DNA from: an uncultured Gammaproteobacteria bacterium
Lineage (GTDB): Bacteria; Pseudomonadota; Gammaproteobacteria; CAMYKB01
NCBI GenBank assembly: GCA_947258875.1
Contig: CAMYKB010000026.1
Span: 1 to 60,144, forward strand
Length of the DNA stretch: 60,144 nt
Direction: 5' to 3'
Shown piece by piece: positions 18,770 to 40,165 of the stretch (positions are counted from its first letter, which is position 1; each line of letters opens with the position of its first letter). A model generated the notes under the pieces. That model ran no database searches. It worked only from the letters and a program-made list of their open reading frames with translations, and was not told the origin of the DNA. The position numbers were made by a program, and so were the translations under genes.

Positions 18770-19049
18770 ACAATATAAGCACGGCACCAGAATACTGGCA
18801 GTTACTCCTGAAAAACAGCATAAACCTATAAACAACATAAGTTAGTGCCTATATATTATTGATATAATTAATTAATAATATTTTATAATTACCGCTCCAT
18901 ATATGAAACCAACGACCTGTTTAACCCTGCCACAAACTATCCGCTCCACTTACAGGATGGATGTACAACATATTGGATCGTAGGGCATTTTCAGCTCTAT
19001 TAGATGTATATCAACTTGCCATTCCTAGCCAACGGTTACGCTTTGCGAC
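18736..19049. other. Divergent control region between Xre/RES and hydrogenase operons
   Basis: This 314-base region has no gene. The left end carries the toxin-antitoxin operator. The middle (18840-18900) is very AT-rich. The right end carries an FNR-like box and a minus-10 element for the hydrogenase operon. Confidence 0.65.
19001..19042 (+). promoter_or_regulatory. FNR-type promoter of the hydrogenase operon
   Basis: TAGAT-GTAT-ATCAA (19001-19014) matches the FNR/ANR consensus TTGAT-N4-ATCAA at 9 of 10 bases. A weak minus-10 TACGCT lies at 19037-19042. The box-to-minus-10 distance equals that at the hyp operon promoter (39793-39862). A class II start (box centred at minus 41.5) would fall at 19049, one base before the hydB ATG, implying a leaderless or nearly leaderless message. 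In agreement, no Shine-Dalgarno is seen there. Confidence 0.55.
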
Positions 19050-20162
19050 ATGACTCGCGGCACGCTTCTTAATCTGCCACATGCCGCCCTGGGTAGTCTA
19101 CTAGCTGTATTAAGACAACAGGGCTATAACTGCATTGGCCCTGTTGTTCGCGATGGCGCGATCGTTTATCGCAGAGTTCATCATGTGTCGGATCTGCCTT
19201 ATGGCTGGCATGATGAACAGATGCCGGGCACTTACCGGCTGGAGCGCAGCAACAGTCCACGCGCGTTTTCCTGGGCAGTTGGTCCAGAAGCCCTCAAGCC
19301 ACTCAACTTTGCGTCAGGCGAAACCTTATGGCGCGCCGAGCGAAATCATGAGGGACAGATCCAGTTCGAAGAAACCTTACCCGCAGCCCAACCGACAGCA
19401 GTTATCGGAGTACGCGCCTGTGACCTGGCGGCATTGCAGCTCCAGGATCAACATTTTCTTGACGGACCGTATCGTGACCCCTATTACGCCGCACGCCGTG
19501 AGCAATTGTTTCTGGTAGCAGTACACTGCACTCACCCGGCTGACACCTGCTTTTGCGCATCTACCGGTGATGGGCCTCAAGCCGAGTATGGTTTTGATAT
19601 TGAAATGTATGAATCGGAGGCGGGGTTCCTGGTGGCACCCGGCTCAGCCGCAGGCGAGGCCATTGTTGGTGAGCTACAGCTTAGTAAAAGTAACGATTCG
19701 CAACGTGCAATAGCTGAAGAGGAGGTTCGACAAGCAGCCAGGAAACAAACTCGCACCCTGCCCTCACAAAACCTTCGCGACAAACTGCTTGCAAGTCTGG
19801 ATCACCCCCATTGGCAGGAAGTGGCAAAGCGTTGTCTATCCTGTGGAAACTGTAGTTCGGTATGCCCAACCTGCTTCTGTCATACCGAGCATGACAACCC
19901 AGCGCTCGACGGGCGAACAACGGAACATGTCCGCGAATGGAGTTCCTGTTTTACGGCCGAGCATGGGGATATCAGTGGCAAGCCAATACGAGTGCAAACG
20001 CACTTACGATACCGCCAATGGCTGACTCACAAGTTGGGCAGTTGGCATGATCAATACGGTCGCAGTGGTTGTGTCGGCTGTGGGCGTTGTATCACCTGGT
20101 GCCCCGTAGGCATCGACATAACGAAAGAAGCGGCTGCAATCTACGAAGCGCAACTGTCATGA
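19050..20162 (+). CDS. hydB: Group 3b NiFe hydrogenase beta subunit (Fe-S)
   Basis: A 370-residue Fe-S protein of the HydB/AsrA type. The N-terminal region (about 1-250) includes RDGAIVYRRV and IGVRACDLAALQLQDQHFL, with a cysteine-containing HCTHPADTCFCAS segment. The C-terminal dicluster ferredoxin region has CLSCGNCSSVCPTCFC at about 263-278 and CVGCGRCITWCPVGID near 344-359. It relays electrons between the NiFe module and the flavin subunit HydG. It is the first gene of a tight operon hydB-G-D-A-protease. Its stop overlaps hydG by ATGA. Confidence 0.9.
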   Translation: MTRGTLLNLPHAALGSLLAVLRQQGYNCIGPVVRDGAIVYRRVHHVSDLPYGWHDEQMPGTYRLERSNSPRAFSWAVGPEALKPLNFASGETLWRAERNHEGQIQFEETLPAAQPTAVIGVRACDLAALQLQDQHFLDGPYRDPYYAARREQLFLVAVHCTHPADTCFCASTGDGPQAEYGFDIEMYESEAGFLVAPGSAAGEAIVGELQLSKSNDSQRAIAEEEVRQAARKQTRTLPSQNLRDKLLASLDHPHWQEVAKRCLSCGNCSSVCPTCFCHTEHDNPALDGRTTEHVREWSSCFTAEHGDISGKPIRVQTHLRYRQWLTHKLGSWHDQYGRSGCVGCGRCITWCPVGIDITKEAAAIYEAQLS

Positions 20163-20992
20163 ATAACCCATACTTGCCCTGGGAAGCTGAAGTTGTTGAA
20201 CGGGTTCAGGAATCCGCGTCGATTGTGACACTACGCATACGTTTTACCGATCCGGCAATACGTAGGCGCTACCGCTTTGATGTGGGCCAATTCAATATGG
20301 TCTATCTTTACGGTGTAGGCGAAATCCCAGTGTCTATTGTCTCCGATCCACAGGATGAACAACTGCTCGATCACATAGTACGCGCCATCGGCCGCGTGAC
20401 ACGCGCATTGGTAACACTAAAGCAAGGTGACCGACTGGGTATCCGTGGCCCCTATGGGCGCGGCTGGCCGTTGCATGAAGCCGTAGGTAAGGATGTGGTG
20501 TTAATAACAGGTGGACTGGGTTGTGCGCCCGTGATGTCGGTGATCAACTTCATCGTCAAGCGGCGTGAACATTTTGGCAAACTAACCATTCTGCAAGGTG
20601 TCAAGCATGCTAACGATCTCATCTGGCGAACACAGTATGAACGTTGGGCAATGTTACCAAACACACAGGTGCTCCTTGCCGCTGATGTGGCGGGACCACA
20701 ATGGCAATATCTTGTTGGCAAAGCCACCATATTACTTGATCGTGCAGTGCTTGATGCCACAAACAGCATCGCCATGATGTGCGGTCCGGAAATCATGATG
20801 CAGGCCTGCGTAACCGAATTACTGCAACGGGGTTTTAACCCCGAGAGCCTGTGGCTTAGTATGGAACGCAATATGCAGTGCGCCGTCAAGCACTGCGGTC
20901 ATTGCCAATACGGACCCCACTTCGTATGCCAAAACGGCCCGGTATTTCAGTATCCCGAGATCGATGAACTGTTTGGTCACAAGGGATTTTGA
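20159..20992 (+). CDS. hydG: Group 3b NiFe hydrogenase gamma subunit (FAD/NAD(P)-binding)
   Basis: A 277-residue ferredoxin-reductase-like subunit. The FAD domain has YRFDVGQFNMVYLYGVGEIPVS (in part) and GDRLGIRGPYGRGW. The NAD(P) domain begins at VVLITGGLGCAPVMSVINF. A C-terminal [2Fe-2S] site is built from the cysteines in NMQCAVKHCGHCQYGP and FVCQNG. It reduces NADP+ with electrons from H2, or the reverse. The ATG at 20159 overlaps the hydB stop; the frame is open upstream to 20069, but that part lies inside hydB and is not needed. The stop is two bases before the hydD ATG. Confidence 0.9.
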   Translation: MNNPYLPWEAEVVERVQESASIVTLRIRFTDPAIRRRYRFDVGQFNMVYLYGVGEIPVSIVSDPQDEQLLDHIVRAIGRVTRALVTLKQGDRLGIRGPYGRGWPLHEAVGKDVVLITGGLGCAPVMSVINFIVKRREHFGKLTILQGVKHANDLIWRTQYERWAMLPNTQVLLAADVAGPQWQYLVGKATILLDRAVLDATNSIAMMCGPEIMMQACVTELLQRGFNPESLWLSMERNMQCAVKHCGHCQYGPHFVCQNGPVFQYPEIDELFGHKGF

Positions 20993-20994
20993 GC

Positions 20995-21789
20995 ATGAAT
21001 ACTGAAATGGTCAAACCCCGGATTGCGGTACACAAATTCAGTTCCTGTGATGGCTGTCAGCTCGCCTTCCTGAATGCGGGTCCCGCGCTACTGGAGCTGG
21101 CAGAGCTGACTGATATCGTCTATTTCGCCGAAGCCGGATCACTGGAACGGGAGGTAGAGATCGATATTGCCTTTGTGGAAGGTAGCATTTCTACACCGCA
21201 AGACTTGACACGCATCAAAGCGATACGCGAGAACAGCGCATACCTGATCACAATCGGCGCCTGTGCCACTACGGGTGGACTGCAAGGACTGCGTAATCTA
21301 TATGCTTCCAATACCCGAGACTGGACCGGTGCAATCTATGCCCGACCGGAGTTTATCGAAACCCTGGATGAATCACAGCCGGTATCATCGCACGTAAAGG
21401 TTGATCTGGAACTCTGGGGTTGCCCTGTTAGCACACAGCAAATAATGACTGCGCTACGTGCCCTGTTATTTGGTGTGACACCCGGCGATGATCGAGACAA
21501 GATCTGCATGGAATGCAAACGCCGCCATAATGTGTGTGTATTGATTACCAAAGCTGCGCCCTGCATGGGCCCTGTCACACGCACCGGCTGCGGTGCTATC
21601 TGCCCGGCCTATGGCCGTGATTGTTACGCCTGTTACGGACCTGCTGAGAACATCAATGCCGAGGCATTGGCAACATGCTTCGAAGGCTTAGGCCTGCTGC
21701 CACAAGATATCGCACGCCGCTTCCATTTCATTAACTGTAACGCACCGAATTTTAAGCAAGCCGGCACCATCTGGCGGAATAAATCGTAG
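20995..21789 (+). CDS. hydD: Group 3b NiFe hydrogenase small (delta) subunit
   Basis: From ATG 20995 the product is 264 residues. The proximal-cluster motif SSCDGCQLAF has Cys 18 and 21. Further cluster ligands are seen in TIGACATTGGLQ, ELWGCPVS, ICMECKRRHNVCV and the C-rich CGAICPAYGRDCYACYGP. There is no Tat signal, as expected for a cytosolic group 3 enzyme. It carries electrons from the NiFe site to HydB/HydG. An earlier in-frame TTG at 20989 is less likely than the ATG. The gene lies between hydG and hydA in the family order. Confidence 0.9.
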   Translation: MNTEMVKPRIAVHKFSSCDGCQLAFLNAGPALLELAELTDIVYFAEAGSLEREVEIDIAFVEGSISTPQDLTRIKAIRENSAYLITIGACATTGGLQGLRNLYASNTRDWTGAIYARPEFIETLDESQPVSSHVKVDLELWGCPVSTQQIMTALRALLFGVTPGDDRDKICMECKRRHNVCVLITKAAPCMGPVTRTGCGAICPAYGRDCYACYGPAENINAEALATCFEGLGLLPQDIARRFHFINCNAPNFKQAGTIWRNKS

Positions 21790-21797
21790 ATATTGAT

Positions 21798-23093
21798 ATG
21801 CAAGAGAAACGTAACATCCATATCAAGGTTCCGGTCATGACCCGCGTGGAGGGGGAAGGCGCTCTAGAGATCACCGCCAGTGATGGTCATATACAAGACC
21901 TGCAATTACGTATTTTCGAGCCTCCGCGTTACTTTGAAAAATTCCTCGAAGGCCGCAGTTATCACGAAATACCCGATATTGTGGCACGCATCTGTGGTAT
22001 TTGTCCCGTGGCATATCAAGTGACCGCGGTGCAAGCTATTGAGAGCGCCTTCGGGTGTGACACCGGACCTTGGGTAAGAGAACTGCGACGGCTAATGTAT
22101 TGCGGCGAATGGATTCAGAGCCATGCTCTTCATATCCATTTGCTTGCGATGCCCGACTTTCTCGGCTATCCCAATGCCATCGCGATGGCGGCTGACTACC
22201 CGGAGGAGATTCGCAGGGGGCTGCATCTGCAAGCACTCGGTAACGATGTTATTAGTCTTTTAGGTGGTCGTTCGGTACACCCGGTAGGTGTTCGCCCTGG
22301 TGGTTTTCACTACGCGCCAGAATATGGTGAGACGGATGCGTTGCTGAAAAAATTGCGGGCAGCGGTATCAGATGCCGAAACCCTGGTGCGATGGACAGCA
22401 TCGTTGGACTTTCCCGATAGTGATCAAAATTTTGTTAGTGCTGCCTTGCAGCATCCCACTGAGTATCCTGTTCACGAAGGTCGTATTTGCTCGGATTCAG
22501 GCATTGATATTAACGTTACGGAATACGAACAATATTTCGTCGAGCATCAGGAGCCCCATTCTACTGCACTATATTCGTTACTCGACGGAAAACCCTATCT
22601 GCTAGGCCCACTTGCACGCATCAATCTTAATCATGCTCAACTCGATCAAACTCTTGACGTAGTGGCCGGTATCGCTGTGAACTTTCCAAGCCGCAATATG
22701 TTTCATAGCATTATCGCTCGTGCGATCGAGTTACACTACGCCCTCCATGAAGCGATAAAACTGCTGGAATCATACAGCTATCCTGATCAGCCCTACGTTG
22801 AAATCACGCCCTGTGAAAGTATAGGGATCGGTGCAACCGAGGCACCACGAGGCTTACTGTGGCATCGTTACGAGTTTGATGACAGTGGATGCATTGTTCA
22901 AGCGCGTATCGTCCCTCCCACCTCGCAGAATCAGGCACGCATCGAAGAAGATCTACATGATGCGATTGAAGCTTTTGGCTTTCATCATTCTGATGAAGCC
23001 ATTCGTTTACATGGTGAGATGGTGATCCGCAATTATGACCCCTGCATCTCATGCGCAACACATTTCCTCAACATCAAGATCAACCGAGAATGA
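21798..23093 (+). CDS. hydA: Group 3b NiFe hydrogenase large (alpha) subunit
   Basis: A 431-residue catalytic subunit. The N-terminal nickel ligands are in ARICGICPVAY (Cys 66, 69) and the C-terminal pair in DPCISCATHFL (Cys 416, 419). His 422 marks the expected processing site, leaving a 9-residue extension (FLNIKINRE) removed by the maturation protease. The start reads IKVPVMTRVEGEGALEI, typical of cytosolic group 3 enzymes. It should oxidise or evolve H2 with NADP(H); relatives also reduce sulfur. The stop overlaps the protease gene by ATGA. Confidence 0.95.
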   Translation: MQEKRNIHIKVPVMTRVEGEGALEITASDGHIQDLQLRIFEPPRYFEKFLEGRSYHEIPDIVARICGICPVAYQVTAVQAIESAFGCDTGPWVRELRRLMYCGEWIQSHALHIHLLAMPDFLGYPNAIAMAADYPEEIRRGLHLQALGNDVISLLGGRSVHPVGVRPGGFHYAPEYGETDALLKKLRAAVSDAETLVRWTASLDFPDSDQNFVSAALQHPTEYPVHEGRICSDSGIDINVTEYEQYFVEHQEPHSTALYSLLDGKPYLLGPLARINLNHAQLDQTLDVVAGIAVNFPSRNMFHSIIARAIELHYALHEAIKLLESYSYPDQPYVEITPCESIGIGATEAPRGLLWHRYEFDDSGCIVQARIVPPTSQNQARIEEDLHDAIEAFGFHHSDEAIRLHGEMVIRNYDPCISCATHFLNIKINRE

Positions 23094-23566
23094 GTGTGAT
23101 ACGTATCCTGGGTGTGGGATCACCTTATGGGGAGGATAGCCTTGGCTGGCGGGCTACACGGGCACTCGAAAATACGCAACTGGCAGAAATGCTTGCGCCA
23201 GACACTGTTGAGTATCGCTATCTGGATCGTCCCGGACCTACTCTGCTCAATGAACTTGAGGGCGCTATCCAGGTTGTGATAATTGATGCTATGCGCTCAG
23301 GAAATCCTCCTGGAACAGTACGGAAGCTCGAGCTGAGTGAGATTGAAACAGTGCTTGCACCCGTCTCCACACATGGTTATGACCTTGCCACCAGCATCGC
23401 GCTTGCCCGTTCGCTCGATCATATCCTCTGTGAATCTATCATTATAGGGATTGAGATGGGTTCATCACCAGACGATATCCCGGGAAACACAATGAAGCGA
23501 ATTCAGAGCGAGTTATTCCAGTTCATCGCGCGGGAAGTTCGAGAAACCAGGTCAGCCATAGGCTGA
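23090..23566 (+). CDS. Hydrogenase maturation protease (HycI/HyaD family)
   Basis: A 158-residue protein. It has the family start IRILGVGSPYGEDSLGWRA, with the first metal-ligand acid in the GEDSLG segment, the VVIIDAMRSGNPPGTV segment with the second acid, and STHGYDLATSIALA with the conserved His. It should cleave the C-terminal extension of HydA after nickel insertion. The ATG at 23090 overlaps the hydA stop by 4 bases. The stop codon is inside the terminator stem at 23545-23573. Confidence 0.9.
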   Translation: MSVIRILGVGSPYGEDSLGWRATRALENTQLAEMLAPDTVEYRYLDRPGPTLLNELEGAIQVVIIDAMRSGNPPGTVRKLELSEIETVLAPVSTHGYDLATSIALARSLDHILCESIIIGIEMGSSPDDIPGNTMKRIQSELFQFIAREVRETRSAIG

Positions 23567-33765: not shown

Positions 33766-34809
33766 TCAGCAGATTCGTGGTAAGGGGTCATCTTCCAGTT
33801 CGTCCAAGAAGCGTTCCCCTCCAAGATCGGTTTCGAGCACGACATGACAGCCTTCGTCTCTCTCAACTTTACCGATAATGGAAGCATCACTACCCTCAGG
33901 TAAGTCACGCCAGATAGCGAGCGCTTGATCAGCCTGTATGCTGTCAACAACTGCCACGACTCGCCCCTCACAGGCCAGATAATAAGGATCGTAGCCCAGC
34001 ATCTCACATACAGAGCGCACTTCGTCACGCACAGGAATAAGGGGTTCGAACAAACGCAGCACATGCTGCGCCGCATGTGCACATTCATGAGCCACAGTCG
34101 CCAAGCCACCACGCGTGGGATCACGCATGAACCGCAGTCCCGGCAGCTCACGCAATGCTCGAGTCAACGGCAAGACACTCGCAGCATCGGATTTCAGCTC
34201 ACCACGCAAGCCGAATTGCTCTCGCGCCAGCATTACAGCAATGCCATGATCACCCACAGTCCCGCTCACCAGAATACTGTCCCCAGGCCGGATCTGATCA
34301 AGACCAAGTTTTACGCCCTTAGGTTTGATACCAACACCCGTGGTTGCAAGGTAAATTCCGCCACCCTCACCACGCCGTAGTACCTTGGTATCACCTGCAG
34401 CAACCTGCACACCAACCTCATGTGCGGCGGCGGCAAGGGATGTGATGATACGTTCGAGTTGAGCAACCTCCATACCTTCTTCAATAAAAGCGTTAAGGCT
34501 CAGATAAAGTGGATCGGCGCCGGAGACGGCAAGATCATTAGTTGTACCATGTACGGCCAAGGAACCAATATTGCCACCCGGAAACTCCATAGGTTGCACG
34601 GTAAAACCGTCGGTCGTAAACATCAATTCAGTTTGACCCACTTGTAATGCGACTGCATCGGCCTGAACATCAAGCGCTGGACTTGCCAGCAGCGGCGCGA
34701 ACAGATCCTCGATCAATTCACGCATGTAACGCCCGCCATTACCGTGTGCCAGCGATATATGTGTGTCTTGTAGTAATCGCCTGGACTGCTTTGCGCTTGT
34801 GACGGACAT
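33766..34809 (-). CDS. hypE: Hydrogenase maturation factor HypE
   Basis: A 347-residue PurM-like ATPase that dehydrates the thiocarboxamide on its own C-terminal Cys to thiocyanate, the source of the NiFe cyanide ligands. The ATP-binding segments ISLAHGNGGRYMRELI and GGNIGSLAVHGTTNDLAVSGA are present, as is RDPTRGGLATVAHE. It ends PRIC, the required terminal Cys. It is last in the hypCABDFE operon, 22 bases after hypF. Confidence 0.95.
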   Translation of the reverse strand: MSVTSAKQSRRLLQDTHISLAHGNGGRYMRELIEDLFAPLLASPALDVQADAVALQVGQTELMFTTDGFTVQPMEFPGGNIGSLAVHGTTNDLAVSGADPLYLSLNAFIEEGMEVAQLERIITSLAAAAHEVGVQVAAGDTKVLRRGEGGGIYLATTGVGIKPKGVKLGLDQIRPGDSILVSGTVGDHGIAVMLAREQFGLRGELKSDAASVLPLTRALRELPGLRFMRDPTRGGLATVAHECAHAAQHVLRLFEPLIPVRDEVRSVCEMLGYDPYYLACEGRVVAVVDSIQADQALAIWRDLPEGSDASIIGKVERDEGCHVVLETDLGGERFLDELEDDPLPRIC

Positions 34810-34831: not shown

Positions 34832-37120
34832 TTATCGTTGAACGGCATATTCGACAACCTGCCCAAAGCTGATACCGCCGTCATTGTTGGGAATTTGCTC
34901 TGCGAGCTTGACCACGAAACCTTCCAGTGACAGTAGAGCGGCCGCCTGTTCGGTTAATAACCTGTTCTGGAATACTCCTCCCGTGAGACCAACCTGATTA
35001 ACACCGTGTTCCCTGCGCAGGTATTTCGCCTGTTCCACCAGCGCCTGTGCAAGGCTGGAGTGGAGGGTCGCTGCACGCATATCGGGGTAAATGCGTTCAT
35101 TCGCCAACCAGGCAACCAGTGGAGACCAGTCTGTGCGCAGCACACCACTGCCATCTTCTTGCAAGGGCAGCCTGACAACATCGCCCTGTTGTTCGTCAGC
35201 CAGGGCTTCGAGTTGCATCGGTCCCTGCCCTTCATAACTCGTGCTATGTTTGTGCATGATCAATGCTGTTGCTGCATCAAACAGGCGTCCTACCGCGGAG
35301 CTTTGCGGCGAATTGATGCGTTTTTCCCAGGCTTGTTTTATCAGGGTACTCTCTACAGGCGCCTCCCAGGGGTAATCAATCTCCCAACACAATGCGGCTG
35401 CACTACGCCAGGGTTCGCGGCCCGCCTTGTCTCCACCGGGCAAGTGAAACGGGCGTATGCTACCCACACGCTCCCATAACCCAGGCCGGCCCAGCAGGGT
35501 CTCACCACCCCAGAGTGTGCCATCCCTGCCATACCCGACACCGTCCCAGGCAAACACCAGCCAGTCAAATTCATTAACCGAAGCAGCATCGATATGTTCG
35601 CCGACCAGTGCCGATGCATGTGCCTCATGGTGGAAAACCTGACACATGCCCAGACCGCAGGACTTCGCCCAGGCGGTGGTGCGATAGCCCGGGTGCGCAT
35701 CGCAAACCACCCTTTCAGCTTTCACATCATAAAGGCGCTGTAAATCATCGAGCACTTGTTCAAATACCTTAAGGCTACGCGGTGCATCCATATCACCAAT
35801 GTGAGGTGAAATCACGACACGGTCATCCCAGGCCAGTGCGATGGTATTTTTTAAATGCCCCCCCACTGCAAGCACCGGTCGCTCGAGCGTTACCGGTAAA
35901 TTGAGTTCAACAGGCGCATTACCGCGTCCCAGTCGAATTGGCCGCAGCCGTCTGTTAATAGTGCGAAATACCGGGTCATCTGCAGGGCGTTCAATCACTC
36001 TGCTGTGATGCAGGCGTAGCCGTGTGACATGCGCAAGCCGTGTATCGACATCCTGATTATCAGTGAGTACCGGCTCTCCACTGATATTGGCAGAGGTCGC
36101 GACTAAAGGACCTGCGAAATCTGACAGCAATAAATGGTGCAGTGGACTATATGGCAGCATCACACCTACTTCTTCAAGCCCCGGCGCAATCAGCACTGAC
36201 AGGCTACAATTGGGTGCTTTGCGCGCCAGTACGATAGGCCGTAGAGGACTGGTAAGCAGGCGGACTTCATCAGGCTTTAGCAAAGCCTGGCTGGCAACGG
36301 CAGCAAGGCCATCTTCGCCAGCTAACGGAAACATCACTGCCAAAGGTTTGTCGGGACGTGGTTTAGTAGCTCGCAGTCGTGCAATCGCAACATCATTATG
36401 CGCATCACACATCAGGTGATAACCACCGATACCTTTAACGGCGACGATTTCACCTTTACGCAAGGCTATTATGCAGGCTGACAATGCCTTATTAGTCTGC
36501 GTGATATTCACACCATCAGACATCACAAAAGTGAGTTGTGGTCCACACTCAGGACAGGCAATCGGTTCAGCGTGGAAGCGGCGGTTCAGCGGGTTTTCAT
36601 ACTCACGCGTGCAATTGCTGCACAGGGGAAAACCCGCCATCGTGGTATTAGGCCGGTCATAGGGTAATGATTTGATTAATGTGTAGCGCGGCCCGCATTG
36701 CGTGCAATTGATAAAGGGATACCGATAACGCCTGTCGTCAGGATGCATTAATTCTTCGAGGCACTGATCACACAGAGCATAATCTGGGGGCACCTCAATA
36801 TGGGATTGCTGTCCGCTGCAACTGGACTCAATGATAAATTCACTCAAACCCTTGCTATCGACCGTGACACAGTTATCGATAACCGGTTTGGCGATTTGCG
36901 GCGCATCATGAATCAGCGCCGTGCCAAATGCGTCAAGTGTAGCGGGCTTGCCTTCTGCAGAGACCTCCACCCTGCCGAGTTGATTCTGCACCGATCCTGA
37001 AACACCATATTGACACGCCAGGCGGTAAACAAATGGCCGAAAACCAACGCCTTGAACATGACCGGAGATCAACCAGCGGCGAGCCTCTATCGTCTGCCTT
37101 ATATTTGAAGACGGGTTCAT
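34832..37120 (-). CDS. hypF: Carbamoyltransferase HypF
   Basis: A 762-residue protein from ATG 37120 (an upstream open extension lies within hypD and is rejected). Domains in order are acylphosphatase (WLISGHVQGVGFRPFVYRLA), two zinc fingers of CxxC-N18-CxxC type (CDQC, CTQC, CSNC, CPEC), YrdC-like (KGEIVAVKGIGGYHLMCDA) and Kae1-like carbamoyltransferase (VVCDAHPGYRTT, VGLTGGVFQN). It activates carbamoyl phosphate and loads HypE. Length is normal. It starts 4 bases after the hypD stop. Confidence 0.95.
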   Translation of the reverse strand: MNPSSNIRQTIEARRWLISGHVQGVGFRPFVYRLACQYGVSGSVQNQLGRVEVSAEGKPATLDAFGTALIHDAPQIAKPVIDNCVTVDSKGLSEFIIESSCSGQQSHIEVPPDYALCDQCLEELMHPDDRRYRYPFINCTQCGPRYTLIKSLPYDRPNTTMAGFPLCSNCTREYENPLNRRFHAEPIACPECGPQLTFVMSDGVNITQTNKALSACIIALRKGEIVAVKGIGGYHLMCDAHNDVAIARLRATKPRPDKPLAVMFPLAGEDGLAAVASQALLKPDEVRLLTSPLRPIVLARKAPNCSLSVLIAPGLEEVGVMLPYSPLHHLLLSDFAGPLVATSANISGEPVLTDNQDVDTRLAHVTRLRLHHSRVIERPADDPVFRTINRRLRPIRLGRGNAPVELNLPVTLERPVLAVGGHLKNTIALAWDDRVVISPHIGDMDAPRSLKVFEQVLDDLQRLYDVKAERVVCDAHPGYRTTAWAKSCGLGMCQVFHHEAHASALVGEHIDAASVNEFDWLVFAWDGVGYGRDGTLWGGETLLGRPGLWERVGSIRPFHLPGGDKAGREPWRSAAALCWEIDYPWEAPVESTLIKQAWEKRINSPQSSAVGRLFDAATALIMHKHSTSYEGQGPMQLEALADEQQGDVVRLPLQEDGSGVLRTDWSPLVAWLANERIYPDMRAATLHSSLAQALVEQAKYLRREHGVNQVGLTGGVFQNRLLTEQAAALLSLEGFVVKLAEQIPNNDGGISFGQVVEYAVQR

Positions 37121-37124
37121 CAAC

Positions 37125-38240
37125 TTACCATTCTGCCACCTGTGACACAGCACGTTCGCGCACTCCTCCAGCCCACCATATCCTGCAAGCGCCTTCATCC
37201 GAAACCATGCACGGCCCTATAGGGTTACGCGGTGTGCAGGCGTTACCATAAATACGGCACTCGTTAGGATAAACCTTGCCGAGCACTACACGTGCACAAT
37301 CACACCCTTGCGGCATTTGTCCTACCCGCTTACGATCAGCATCAGCATAACTCGGTAATTGCTTACGGGCATCATGGGCAGCCAGCGAGTCCTTCAAGGC
37401 ATAACCGGAGGCAGGAATAATACCGACACCTCGCCAGTTGGCATCGACAACGTTCATGGTTTCCTTGAGCTGTGCCTGCGCCGTTTTATTACCACCGGGT
37501 TTAACCACTTCTGAATAACAATTATTGAGGAAGCGCAGTCCGTCCAGTAGTTGCCGCAACGTGGAGTACATGGCGGCAAGTAATGATTCGGGAGTGAAGC
37601 CGGCAACCGCAGCCGGCATCTGGTGTTTATCGATAACAAATTGCCACTCCTCAGGACCCATGACCGTAGACACATGGCCTGGTGCAATAAGGGCATCGAA
37701 ACCAGCCGTCTCGGATTCCAACAACATGGCGACAGCCGGCCATGTGAGGCGCCCTGAGAGCAGGATTAACAAATTGTCCGGTACACCCTCGACCAGCATG
37801 GCAGCAACAGGTGCCGTAGTGGTTTCAAAACCGGCCGCGAAAAACACTACCGTGCGGTCAGGGTTAGCATCAGCTATGCGTATCGCCTCTGTAGGCGATG
37901 CGATTGGCCTGATATCGGCACCGGCTGCCTTGGCCTGTTGCAGGGAACGGATTTCGCGATGAGGCAAATTAACGGGAACCCGCAGCATGTCGCCGAAGGC
38001 CACCAGGATGACGTCTTCCTTTAGCGCCAGCTGCATGGCTTCATACACATCTTCTTCAGGGCAGATACACACGGGACAACCGGGGCCCGGAATCAATTCG
38101 ATTTGTAGTGGTAAGGCGCCACGTAAACCAGCCATAGTGATCGAACGTTCATGCCCGCCGCAGACATTCATGATACGAACCTTTTCCGGTAACTCCAGGT
38201 CCCGTATCTTCTGCAACCATTGTCTGGCGCTAAGCGGCAT
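37125..38240 (-). CDS. hypD: Hydrogenase formation protein HypD
   Basis: A 371-residue [4Fe-4S] scaffold protein. Conserved motifs are MNVCGGHERSI, PGPGCPVCICPE, FAAGFETTTAP and APGHVSTVMGPEEW. A C-terminal cysteine set is in GQMPQGCDCARVV and NECRIYGNACTPRNP. With HypC it assembles the Fe(CN)2CO unit of the NiFe site. It begins 13 bases after the hypB stop. Confidence 0.95.
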   Translation of the reverse strand: MPLSARQWLQKIRDLELPEKVRIMNVCGGHERSITMAGLRGALPLQIELIPGPGCPVCICPEEDVYEAMQLALKEDVILVAFGDMLRVPVNLPHREIRSLQQAKAAGADIRPIASPTEAIRIADANPDRTVVFFAAGFETTTAPVAAMLVEGVPDNLLILLSGRLTWPAVAMLLESETAGFDALIAPGHVSTVMGPEEWQFVIDKHQMPAAVAGFTPESLLAAMYSTLRQLLDGLRFLNNCYSEVVKPGGNKTAQAQLKETMNVVDANWRGVGIIPASGYALKDSLAAHDARKQLPSYADADRKRVGQMPQGCDCARVVLGKVYPNECRIYGNACTPRNPIGPCMVSDEGACRIWWAGGVRERAVSQVAEW

Positions 38241-38253
38241 GACGAGTTACCTG

Positions 38254-39102
38254 TCAGCCGTGAGAATGTTTAACATGTTGATGTGAATGCGAAACATGGA
38301 GCCGCGCGTCCTCGGGTTGTATCGTGGGCCGTTGTGTTTCACCAGCAGTGACCCGCTGACGTTGCTTTTCAATTTCGATATCCAGCCAAGCCAACCAGGT
38401 ATCCAGTCCATCTGCAGTAGTGGACGACACTGAACACAGTGGCGCATCACTGGCCAGGTGGCGCAGATAACCTTCAGCACGCTGCGGGTCGAAGCCTTGT
38501 AAATAAGGCAGCAGGTCGGTCTTGGTAATCATTACCAGATCCGCCGCACGAAATATGACGGGATATTTGGCAGGTTTGTCATCACCTTCCGGTACGGAAA
38601 GTAACGTGACATTAAGGTGCTGCCCCAGATCGAAACTGGCCGGGCACACCAGATTACCAACGTTCTCTATGAATAGGATATCAAGGCCATCAAGGCTCAT
38701 ATGATGCAGCGTGTTGTGCACCATGTGTGCATCCAGGTGACAGGCGCTGCCGGTGGTTATCTGTACTGCTTCTATACCTTTGGCGCGGATACGCTCGGCA
38801 TCGTTCTCAGTTTCGAGATCACCCTCTATTACTGCAATGGAATATTGATCGTGTAGGGCGTCAACTGTGGCCTCAAGCAACGCTGTTTTACCTGCACCGG
38901 GCGAAGACATGAGGTTAATTGCCAGGACGCCATGTGTATCAAAATGACTGCGATTGTGTGCGGCCTGATGATCGTTCTCACTCAGCAGATTTTGCAAAAC
39001 CTCGACACTTTCACGCCCGCTGCGGGTATAGGCATGCTTGCCTTCAGCAGTGACCAGATGTGCATTGCCAGGAGTTATATTACAGCCACAAGTGTCACAC
39101 AT
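38254..39102 (-). CDS. hypB: Nickel-inserting GTPase HypB with C-terminal His-rich tail
   Basis: From ATG 39102 (AGGAG Shine-Dalgarno, 282 residues). It begins MCDTCGCN, the high-affinity CxxCGC nickel site. The G-domain has P-loop NLMSSPGAGKTALLE, metal-site residues in the ACHLDAHMV segment, and NKxD-like TKTD. The protein ends with a His-rich tail, RLHVSHSHQHVKHSHG (six His). Many HypB proteins carry a His stretch near the N-terminus; here it is at the C-terminus. It delivers nickel with HypA, encoded 46 bases upstream. Confidence 0.93.
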   Translation of the reverse strand: MCDTCGCNITPGNAHLVTAEGKHAYTRSGRESVEVLQNLLSENDHQAAHNRSHFDTHGVLAINLMSSPGAGKTALLEATVDALHDQYSIAVIEGDLETENDAERIRAKGIEAVQITTGSACHLDAHMVHNTLHHMSLDGLDILFIENVGNLVCPASFDLGQHLNVTLLSVPEGDDKPAKYPVIFRAADLVMITKTDLLPYLQGFDPQRAEGYLRHLASDAPLCSVSSTTADGLDTWLAWLDIEIEKQRQRVTAGETQRPTIQPEDARLHVSHSHQHVKHSHG

Positions 39103-39148
39103 GTTCTTTCTCCTGAACCTTGTAGACAACTAACCAAGGAAGCTCTGA

Positions 39149-39493
39149 TTAATGTATCAACTCGAGACTTGCCAGCAGCAACTCGTCACCACTGATGAGT
39201 TGCGCATGCCAGTCACCACATTTCCCGCAGACCAGCCTGTTCGCAGCTGCCTCGGTCTCAGCACCACATCGCTTACAGCGCACGCGTATCGGCAGCTCTT
39301 CAATCACCAGTTCTGCGCCATCAGCCAGCGTGCCGAGGCTAGCCACCGTATAGGCCTGCCGCAGTAACTGGCTCTCGACGCCGGACAAAGCTCCGATTTG
39401 CAAATATACTTTTTCGATACCACAGGCTTGATACTCGGTGGCCACATTTTCGATCTGTGAGATCAACGCATGACATATCGAAAGCTCGTGCAT
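39149..39493 (-). CDS. hypA: Hydrogenase nickel chaperone HypA
   Basis: A 114-residue protein. It starts MHELSICHALI (nickel-binding MHE). The zinc site uses two CxxC pairs, in RVRCKRCGAET and RLVCGKCGDWH. It passes nickel to the hydrogenase large subunit with HypB. It lies 9 bases after the hypC stop. The extra CGDWH feature is normal for the family. Confidence 0.95.
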   Translation of the reverse strand: MHELSICHALISQIENVATEYQACGIEKVYLQIGALSGVESQLLRQAYTVASLGTLADGAELVIEELPIRVRCKRCGAETEAAANRLVCGKCGDWHAQLISGDELLLASLELIH

Positions 39494-39502
39494 TAGTGTT
39501 TC

Positions 39503-39745
39503 TCAGATGGCTGCTACGGCGGCATCAGCAGCCAGCATCTCGTCATAAATTTCCCATGCGCTGCTGGCTTCTTGCGGGGTAACCTTCTGGATGGCATAAC
39601 CGACATGCACCATCACATAATCACCGGCTTCAACAGGGTCATCCTGCAACATAAACAAACTCACATCCCGCTCGATGCCCTTGGCCACACATCGGGCATT
39701 GAATCCATCGATGGCTGTAATCTGCATGGGGATAGCCAGGCACAT
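39503..39745 (-). CDS. hypC: Hydrogenase assembly chaperone HypC
   Basis: An 80-residue protein from ATG 39745. It begins MCLAIPMQI; removal of Met exposes Cys 2, which holds the iron unit with HypD. The signature GDYVMVHVGYAIQKV is present. The frame is open upstream to 39811, but that extension would bury Cys 2 and is rejected. It is the first gene of hypCABDFE, about 41 bases after the predicted transcription start at 39786. Confidence 0.95.
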   Translation of the reverse strand: MCLAIPMQITAIDGFNARCVAKGIERDVSLFMLQDDPVEAGDYVMVHVGYAIQKVTPQEASSAWEIYDEMLAADAAVAAI

Positions 39746-39792
39746 AAGATTTCGTTTCACACCTTTCAATAATCGCCTTGATGACGGCACCC

Positions 39793-39862
39793 ATTTAAGT
39801 ACATGATCCATAATGAATAATTGACTTGGATCAAGGGTTATTGCGTCAAAATGGTCTTAAAT
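39793..39862. promoter_or_regulatory. Symmetric divergent FNR promoter (hyp operon and small membrane protein)
   Basis: The box TTGAC-TTGG-ATCAA (39821-39834) matches the FNR consensus at 9 of 10 bases. A minus-10 TTAAAT is found at 39857-39862 on the plus strand, and an identical TTAAAT at 39798-39793 on the minus strand. Each lies the same distance from the box. Class II starts (box centre at minus 41.5) would fall at 39869 and 39786. Both flanking transcription units should be induced when oxygen is low. Confidence 0.75.
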
Positions 39863-39916
39863 TCGGCCCATGACAGTGAAAGCATGTTAAATCACCACCG
39901 GACTGGAGGAATCAAG

Positions 39917-40120
39917 GTGAAGATGAAATTATTCGCACTATTTACGCTAATTGTGGCGCATGTAGCGTTCGGTGCCGCCGCACAGGCACATGGCCTGGGG
40001 CATTCAAGCTCTTTCAGTGGCGTGATGCATTTCTCCCATCATGGCGTTGAGCTGATTATGTTTATCATGACCGTGGTGATGGGTATCCTGCTTATGCAGC
40101 TCCGCAGAAAAAAACCATAG
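39917..40120 (+). CDS. Small His-rich membrane protein divergent from hyp operon
   Basis: I do not recognise this as a named family. From GTG 39917 (GGAGG Shine-Dalgarno 7 bases upstream) it is 67 residues; ATG 39923 is an alternative start. A signal-like helix (LFALFTLIVAHVAFGAAAQA) is followed by a His-containing stretch (HGLGHSS, MHFSHHGVE), one transmembrane helix (LIMFIMTVVMGILLMQL) and a basic tail RRKKP. The His-X-His layout before a helix faintly recalls the first part of HupE/UreJ nickel/cobalt permeases, but only one such helix is present. The shared FNR promoter suggests a role in hydrogenase metal supply or assembly. Confidence 0.7.
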   Translation: MKMKLFALFTLIVAHVAFGAAAQAHGLGHSSSFSGVMHFSHHGVELIMFIMTVVMGILLMQLRRKKP

Positions 40121-40129
40121 AGGGTCTCT

Positions 40130-40165
40130 ACCAGGCACCCTACCCGACGGGTACAGGGTCCTGGT
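40130..40165. terminator. Bidirectional terminator hairpin overlapping fieF end
   Basis: ACCAGG-C-ACCCT (40130-40141) pairs with AGGGT-CCTGGT (40155-40165), with an inner CCCG/CGGG stem. It lies between the convergent small membrane protein gene and the exporter gene and includes the exporter stop codon. An A-run just before it supplies a U-tract for minus-strand transcripts. Confidence 0.65.

Follow-up and report, generated by a model that had tools for sequence, protein, structure and literature searches.

The gap at 39745-39917 in the window, as we call the whole stretch of 60,144 nucleotides analysed here, is probably an inherited bidirectional class II FNR promoter, judging from its sequence and from that of related loci, and its divergent half would now drive the gene of a small His-rich protein. 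A single palindromic box lies in this gap between two copies of the hexamer TTAAAT on opposite strands, with the hydrogenase maturation operon hypCABDFE on one side and a 67-aa orphan gene on the other (Table 1). Relatives seem to keep this two-way design, usually with an uptake-hydrogenase operon opposite hyp. FNR-type control of hyp is already known, and what is new is the mirrored, partner-swapped arrangement.

Table 1. Features of the hyp locus and of the facing small-protein gene (positions in the window)
Feature	Position	Strand	Basis or remark
hypE	33766-34809	-	AIRS domains; operon position
hypF	34832-37198	-	profile match
hypD	37125-38240	-	PF01924, E 2.9e-123
hypB	38254-39129	-	PF02492; likely start 39102, MCDTCGCN
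hypA	39149-39493	-	PF01155
hypC, first gene of hypCABDFE	39503-39745	-	PF01455, E 7.9e-24
Predicted transcription start toward hypC	39786	-	from the -41.5 class II rule; leader about 41 nt
TTAAAT, -10-like hexamer for hyp operon	39793-39798	-	ATTTAA on +; centre 39795.5, -32.0 from box
Predicted FNR box, TTGAC-TTGG-ATCAA (TTGACTTGGATCAA)	39821-39834	.	exact palindromic match; centre 39827.5
TTAAAT, -10-like hexamer for small-protein gene	39857-39862	+	centre 39859.5, +32.0 from box
Predicted transcription start toward small protein	39869	+	from the -41.5 class II rule; leader about 48 nt
67-aa orphan protein gene	39917-40120	+	GTG start, GGAGG 7 nt upstream
Strong hairpin between small gene and convergent fieF	40130-40165	.	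-23.9 kcal/mol, z -2.5

The -10 hexamer of a promoter spans positions -12 to -7 and is centred at -9.5, so that a -10 centre lying 32 bp from the box places the box centre 41.5-42 bp from the transcription start, which is class II spacing. The first-pass annotation had claimed that TTAAAT occurs on both strands at the same distance from the box and that this gives class II geometry in both directions; both claims hold, since the distance is exactly 32.0 bp, centre to centre, each way. The box matches the FNR consensus palindrome expected of a class II FNR-dependent promoter, and its placement agrees with -41.5 on both sides. The two -10 elements are separated by 64 bp and the predicted starts by 83 bp, and a bidirectional promoter of the type in which both directions share one -10 was rejected on account of the former distance. 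TTAAAT is a mediocre -10 that lacks the A at position 2, and on the + strand an alternative register one base on (TAAATT at 39858-39863) scores above it. A search of the gap for a σ70 consensus promoter returned none, as expected because the promoter would be activator-dependent, and no Rfam element was found. The hypC start at 39811 proposed by the ORF caller was rejected in favour of the ATG at 39745 (MCLAIPMQI). Within the operon, HypB has a C-terminal His-rich tail (LHVSHSHQHVKHSHG) in place of the N-terminal one that is usual.

The genome (3.01 Mb, 98.5% complete) contains 61 sites of the pattern TTGAYNNNNRTCAA versus 7 for the reversed control pattern, an approximately ninefold enrichment which indicates that such boxes are mostly functional. 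Clusters of these boxes adjoin multihaem cytochrome-like genes (C18, L126-L127) as well as CBS-domain and other genes (C5, L111-L114), which likely form the core of the regulon. Around the 50 of the 61 boxes that were taken into the -10 analysis, hexamers scoring >3 bits are most frequent at 31-33 bp from the centre of the box (13, 9 and 7 sides, with a background near 4 per distance). The window box ranks first among these 50; no other exceeds 3 bits on both sides, the runner-up having 2.0 and 2.6 bits. Shuffled flanks reach an equal two-sided -10 score in 0.4% of trials, and TTAAAT at 32 bp on both sides was obtained in 0 of 20,000 shuffles. Across 369 genomes of the class, a box followed by N22 and TTAAAT was found at 11 other places, and on both strands only in the window.

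Conservation of this layout in relatives turns what could be a mirrored coincidence into a probable design. A scan with HypD yielded 80 loci, of which 72 had a visible hypC, and in 17 of these 72 an exact TTGAN6TCAA box lies 60-120 nt upstream of hypC. The promoter analysis comprised these 17 loci and two more with one mismatch in the box (19 in all). Box-bearing relatives include the Solemya velum symbiont (L071), and both halves are conserved in loci of the L079 and L044 types. At +32, toward hypC, four relatives carry TTAAAT and six more a close variant of it (TTTAAT, TTATAT, TTAGAT or TTACAT), and on the divergent side the sequence at -32 reads TAAAAA, TACAAA, CATAAT or CATACT, or the same with a one-base shift. 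When the best hexamer at 31-33 bp was required to score above 2 bits, a threshold and offset window picked after the alignment had been seen, the hypC side passed in 15 of the 19 loci, the divergent side in 16 and both together in 14; both-side passes in the controls averaged 1.36 with a maximum of 7 (shuffles) or numbered 0-4 (other distances). Among 17 non-redundant loci (<62% identity), information outside the box peaks mostly at -10 positions, namely at three positions toward hypC (+29.5, +30.5 and +34.5) and at one in the divergent direction (-32.5), over a flank mean of 0.27 bits, the hypC-side -10 being the better conserved of the two. This hypC-side element is often TTNNAT-like in relatives L014-L079, with T at position 2, unlike TATAAT, and is often contained within GTTAAATG. 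The three closest HypD relatives (L010-L012) have no box, carry hypA before hypC and continue the operon upstream, and they are uninformative for the arrangement because of this different gene order. Whether the box and both hexamers recur in related genomes, which the first-pass annotation had posed as a question, can thus be answered in part: the box and the hypC-side -10 are kept at the same base positions, whereas the divergent -10 is less conserved.

The identity of the gene facing hyp in these relatives is an additional line of evidence. A hydrogenase maturation protease (in L079, TIGR00072, E 3.5e-36) is encoded opposite hyp in 16 of the 17 loci with an exact box; where the contig extends far enough, its gene is followed in nearly all of them by that of the hydrogenase small subunit (HupS). 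Assuming a start 41.5 bp from the box, the predicted leader of the protease gene measures 18-27 nt in 11 of the 16, an independent regularity that speaks for a functional divergent start. Together, the facing protease and its regular leader point to the mirrored box as a shared hydrogenase/hyp promoter. The arrangement is not universal: of the 40 relatives in which hydrogenase and hyp operons face each other, 24 lack the exact box. Only two NiFe large subunits were found in the window genome. One belongs to an operon in the window itself (19050-23566) for a group 3b-like NAD(P)-linked [NiFe] sulfhydrogenase, with HydB, HydG, HydD and HydA homologues and a protease-like gene, which is preceded only by a one-mismatch FNR-like box (19001-19014). 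The other is part of a Hyb-type uptake hydrogenase operon on contig C27 (L149 5923-12643) that includes a HupE-like protein and has a separate FNR box near L149 12860, ~220 nt upstream of the small subunit gene. Since both NiFe hydrogenases lie elsewhere, the hyp promoter described here has a different divergent partner.

This partner, the 67-aa ORF, is very likely a real coding gene to judge from its composition. Its codon usage scores 0.20 per codon, within the range of 67-codon pieces of real genes (0.10-0.38) and above the 95th percentile of wrong frames (0.03), which argues that the ORF is coding; the proposal that a small His-rich protein is the divergent gene gains from this, and no family for the protein was found in Pfam or NCBIfam. 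From sequence and hydropathy, the product appears to consist of a signal peptide, a stretch rich in His (HGLGH...MHFSHHG), a single helix and a basic tail (RRKKP). No homologues were detected in 56 relatives, 369 genomes of the class, 398 genomes of the phylum, the 80 hyp loci, plasmids or viral contigs, the matches obtained being weak, local and nearly all inside much longer reading frames. Two of these matches were rejected as homologues, one in L094 that adjoins an unrelated regulator and one in G399 that yields no small homologous ORF. Identity with the HupE/UreJ nickel permeases was also rejected, as neither Pfam nor a HupE-type NCBIfam model matched; BLASTP against the HupE-like protein of the genome (L149 6448-6993) aligned 11 residues only (E 0.11). 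The protein is perhaps a metal-handling accessory. Convergent with its gene lies a cation efflux gene of the FieF type, and the hairpin between the two has no T-run on the + strand; no canonical terminator was found there.

In the model that we propose for this promoter, a [4Fe-4S] FNR dimer would bind the single palindrome at low oxygen and recruit RNA polymerase either toward hypCABDFE (-) or toward the small protein gene (+), recruitment being possible either way because the site is symmetric and has a -10 at 32 bp on each side. The ancestral layout would have been a box with two -10s between hyp and a protease-headed uptake-hydrogenase operon, thereby placing enzyme and maturation genes under a common oxygen switch, as it may still do in relatives. 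In the window genome this facing hydrogenase operon is absent and the divergent half would drive a lineage-specific His-rich membrane protein. With relatives of the same class as the basis of comparison, the operon may have been lost and replaced, or it may never have stood at this site. FNR binding, the start sites, the oxygen response, the direction of the partner swap and the role of the small protein are what we infer in this model. The full sequence of events, in which a two-way class II FNR promoter lost its hydrogenase half in this lineage and was re-used for a young His-rich membrane protein gene, is put forward tentatively, as one possible history.

How the two directions would share the activator deserves consideration. 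One FNR dimer probably serves one polymerase at a time, because a polymerase engaged one way would place its alpha C-terminal domain upstream of FNR and be expected to overlap the other promoter. The first-pass annotation had predicted co-induction of hyp and the small protein gene at low oxygen, and this prediction stands in part: the FNR gene, the non-random box and the two-sided geometry favour it, but simple simultaneous firing is doubtful, since a single FNR dimer would have to be shared by two competing polymerases, in keeping with polymerase competition in E. coli (PMC12825309). Across a population of cells both genes are expected to be induced, the two directions firing in alternation and in a ratio set by -10 strength. 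By this reasoning, alternating or mutually limiting firing would be as likely as unmodified co-induction. In a variant compatible with the two-way model, FNR would activate one direction and repress the other by polymerase occlusion, thus working as a switch or ratio-setter. At bidirectional promoters of E. coli, polymerases compete, so that activating transcription one way tends to repress it the other way, and where CRP is placed at -40.5 for one of the two transcripts, the second is lost to polymerase interference (PMC12825309). However, the E. coli case involves a shared core promoter and an asymmetric activator, whereas here the -10s are 64 bp apart around a central, symmetric activator and the relatives need both operons together, which makes this variant a rather unlikely one.

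It is also conceivable that hyp alone is served by the box, TTAAAT on the + strand being a chance hexamer or a remnant of the ancestral divergent hydrogenase operon and the small gene being weak or driven from elsewhere. This would fit the better conservation of the hypC-side -10, the common occurrence of -10-like hexamers in AT-rich flanks and the lack of conservation of the small gene. However, it would leave unexplained why shuffled flanks match both sides in just 0.4% of trials, why the window box stands alone among 50 genome boxes in having two good -10s, and why a Shine-Dalgarno sequence precedes the small ORF, whose codon usage resembles that of the genome and whose leader is ordinary in length. 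Service to hyp alone is thus considered unlikely.

The regulator required by the two-way model is encoded in the genome (L005 1339-2169). The protein scores 254.8 bits with the FNR family PRK11161 versus a curated cut-off of 228 and has the C-x2-C-x5-C motif (CNGCNYKKIC), a later Cys (TTICEMP) and the recognition helix ETVSR (AMETVSR), thus combining the curated family score, Cys cluster and E-x2-S-R type helix that identify an FNR regulator. There are three Crp/Fnr-type proteins besides it, including a 247-aa FNR-like regulator (L153 988-1731, contig C35) with a CxxC near the N-terminus as its only such motif, a protein that may recognise the box in addition to FNR. That another member of this family, e.g., the L153 regulator with its FNR-like recognition helix (TAESVSR), reads the box, perhaps with nitrogen oxides and not oxygen as the cue, is highly improbable, since FNR itself is present and scores far above that regulator, boxes adjoin FNR-type targets (a HemN-like gene, a CcoI-like gene and the hyb hydrogenase operon), and hyp is under FNR-type control in other species (PMC3149613, PMC3534401).

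The promoter resembles the class II FNR promoters of E. coli (dmsA, narG, nirB, nrfA) in having a palindromic box near -41.5, the position, within plus or minus 4, of 19 of the 23 FNR-activated promoters with a known start in that bacterium; those promoters are described one direction at a time, whereas here one box fits both (PMC3688515). In Sphingopyxis granuli, one Fnr box at -41.5 lies between ccoN and ompW and the authors suggest that the divergent gene is served too; the genes are others, divergent activation is only suggested and, in the accessible part of that paper, a mirrored -10 geometry is not described (PMC7713065). Pseudo-symmetric promoters of E. coli have in common with the present one that DNA symmetry leads to divergent transcription, but in them the -10 or core promoter is shared, while here the symmetric element is the activator site (PMC12825309, PMC10268837). 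As for hyp itself, the operon is under FNR control in E. coli (PMC3149613) and under an FnrN-type promoter in Rhizobium leguminosarum (PMC3534401), and is thus alike in its FNR-type oxygen regulator, but the portions of these reports that are available describe no divergent partner on the box. No description of a mirrored class II FNR box between hup and hyp was found in the literature covered, which included few subscription papers.

In all, the promoter suggests a simple cis rule by which joint oxygen control of facing operons can be predicted from their sequence: a single symmetric activator site flanked by a -10 at 32 bp in either direction. How one activator dimer splits its work between two polymerases could be studied on this natural example, and the 67-aa protein becomes a candidate new accessory of hydrogenase maturation. 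If the proposed history is true, a young gene would have inherited ready-made oxygen control together with a functional link to nickel-iron maturation. More broadly, the conserved two-way promoter, if true, would couple the structural and maturation operons of [NiFe]-hydrogenases across Gammaproteobacteria.
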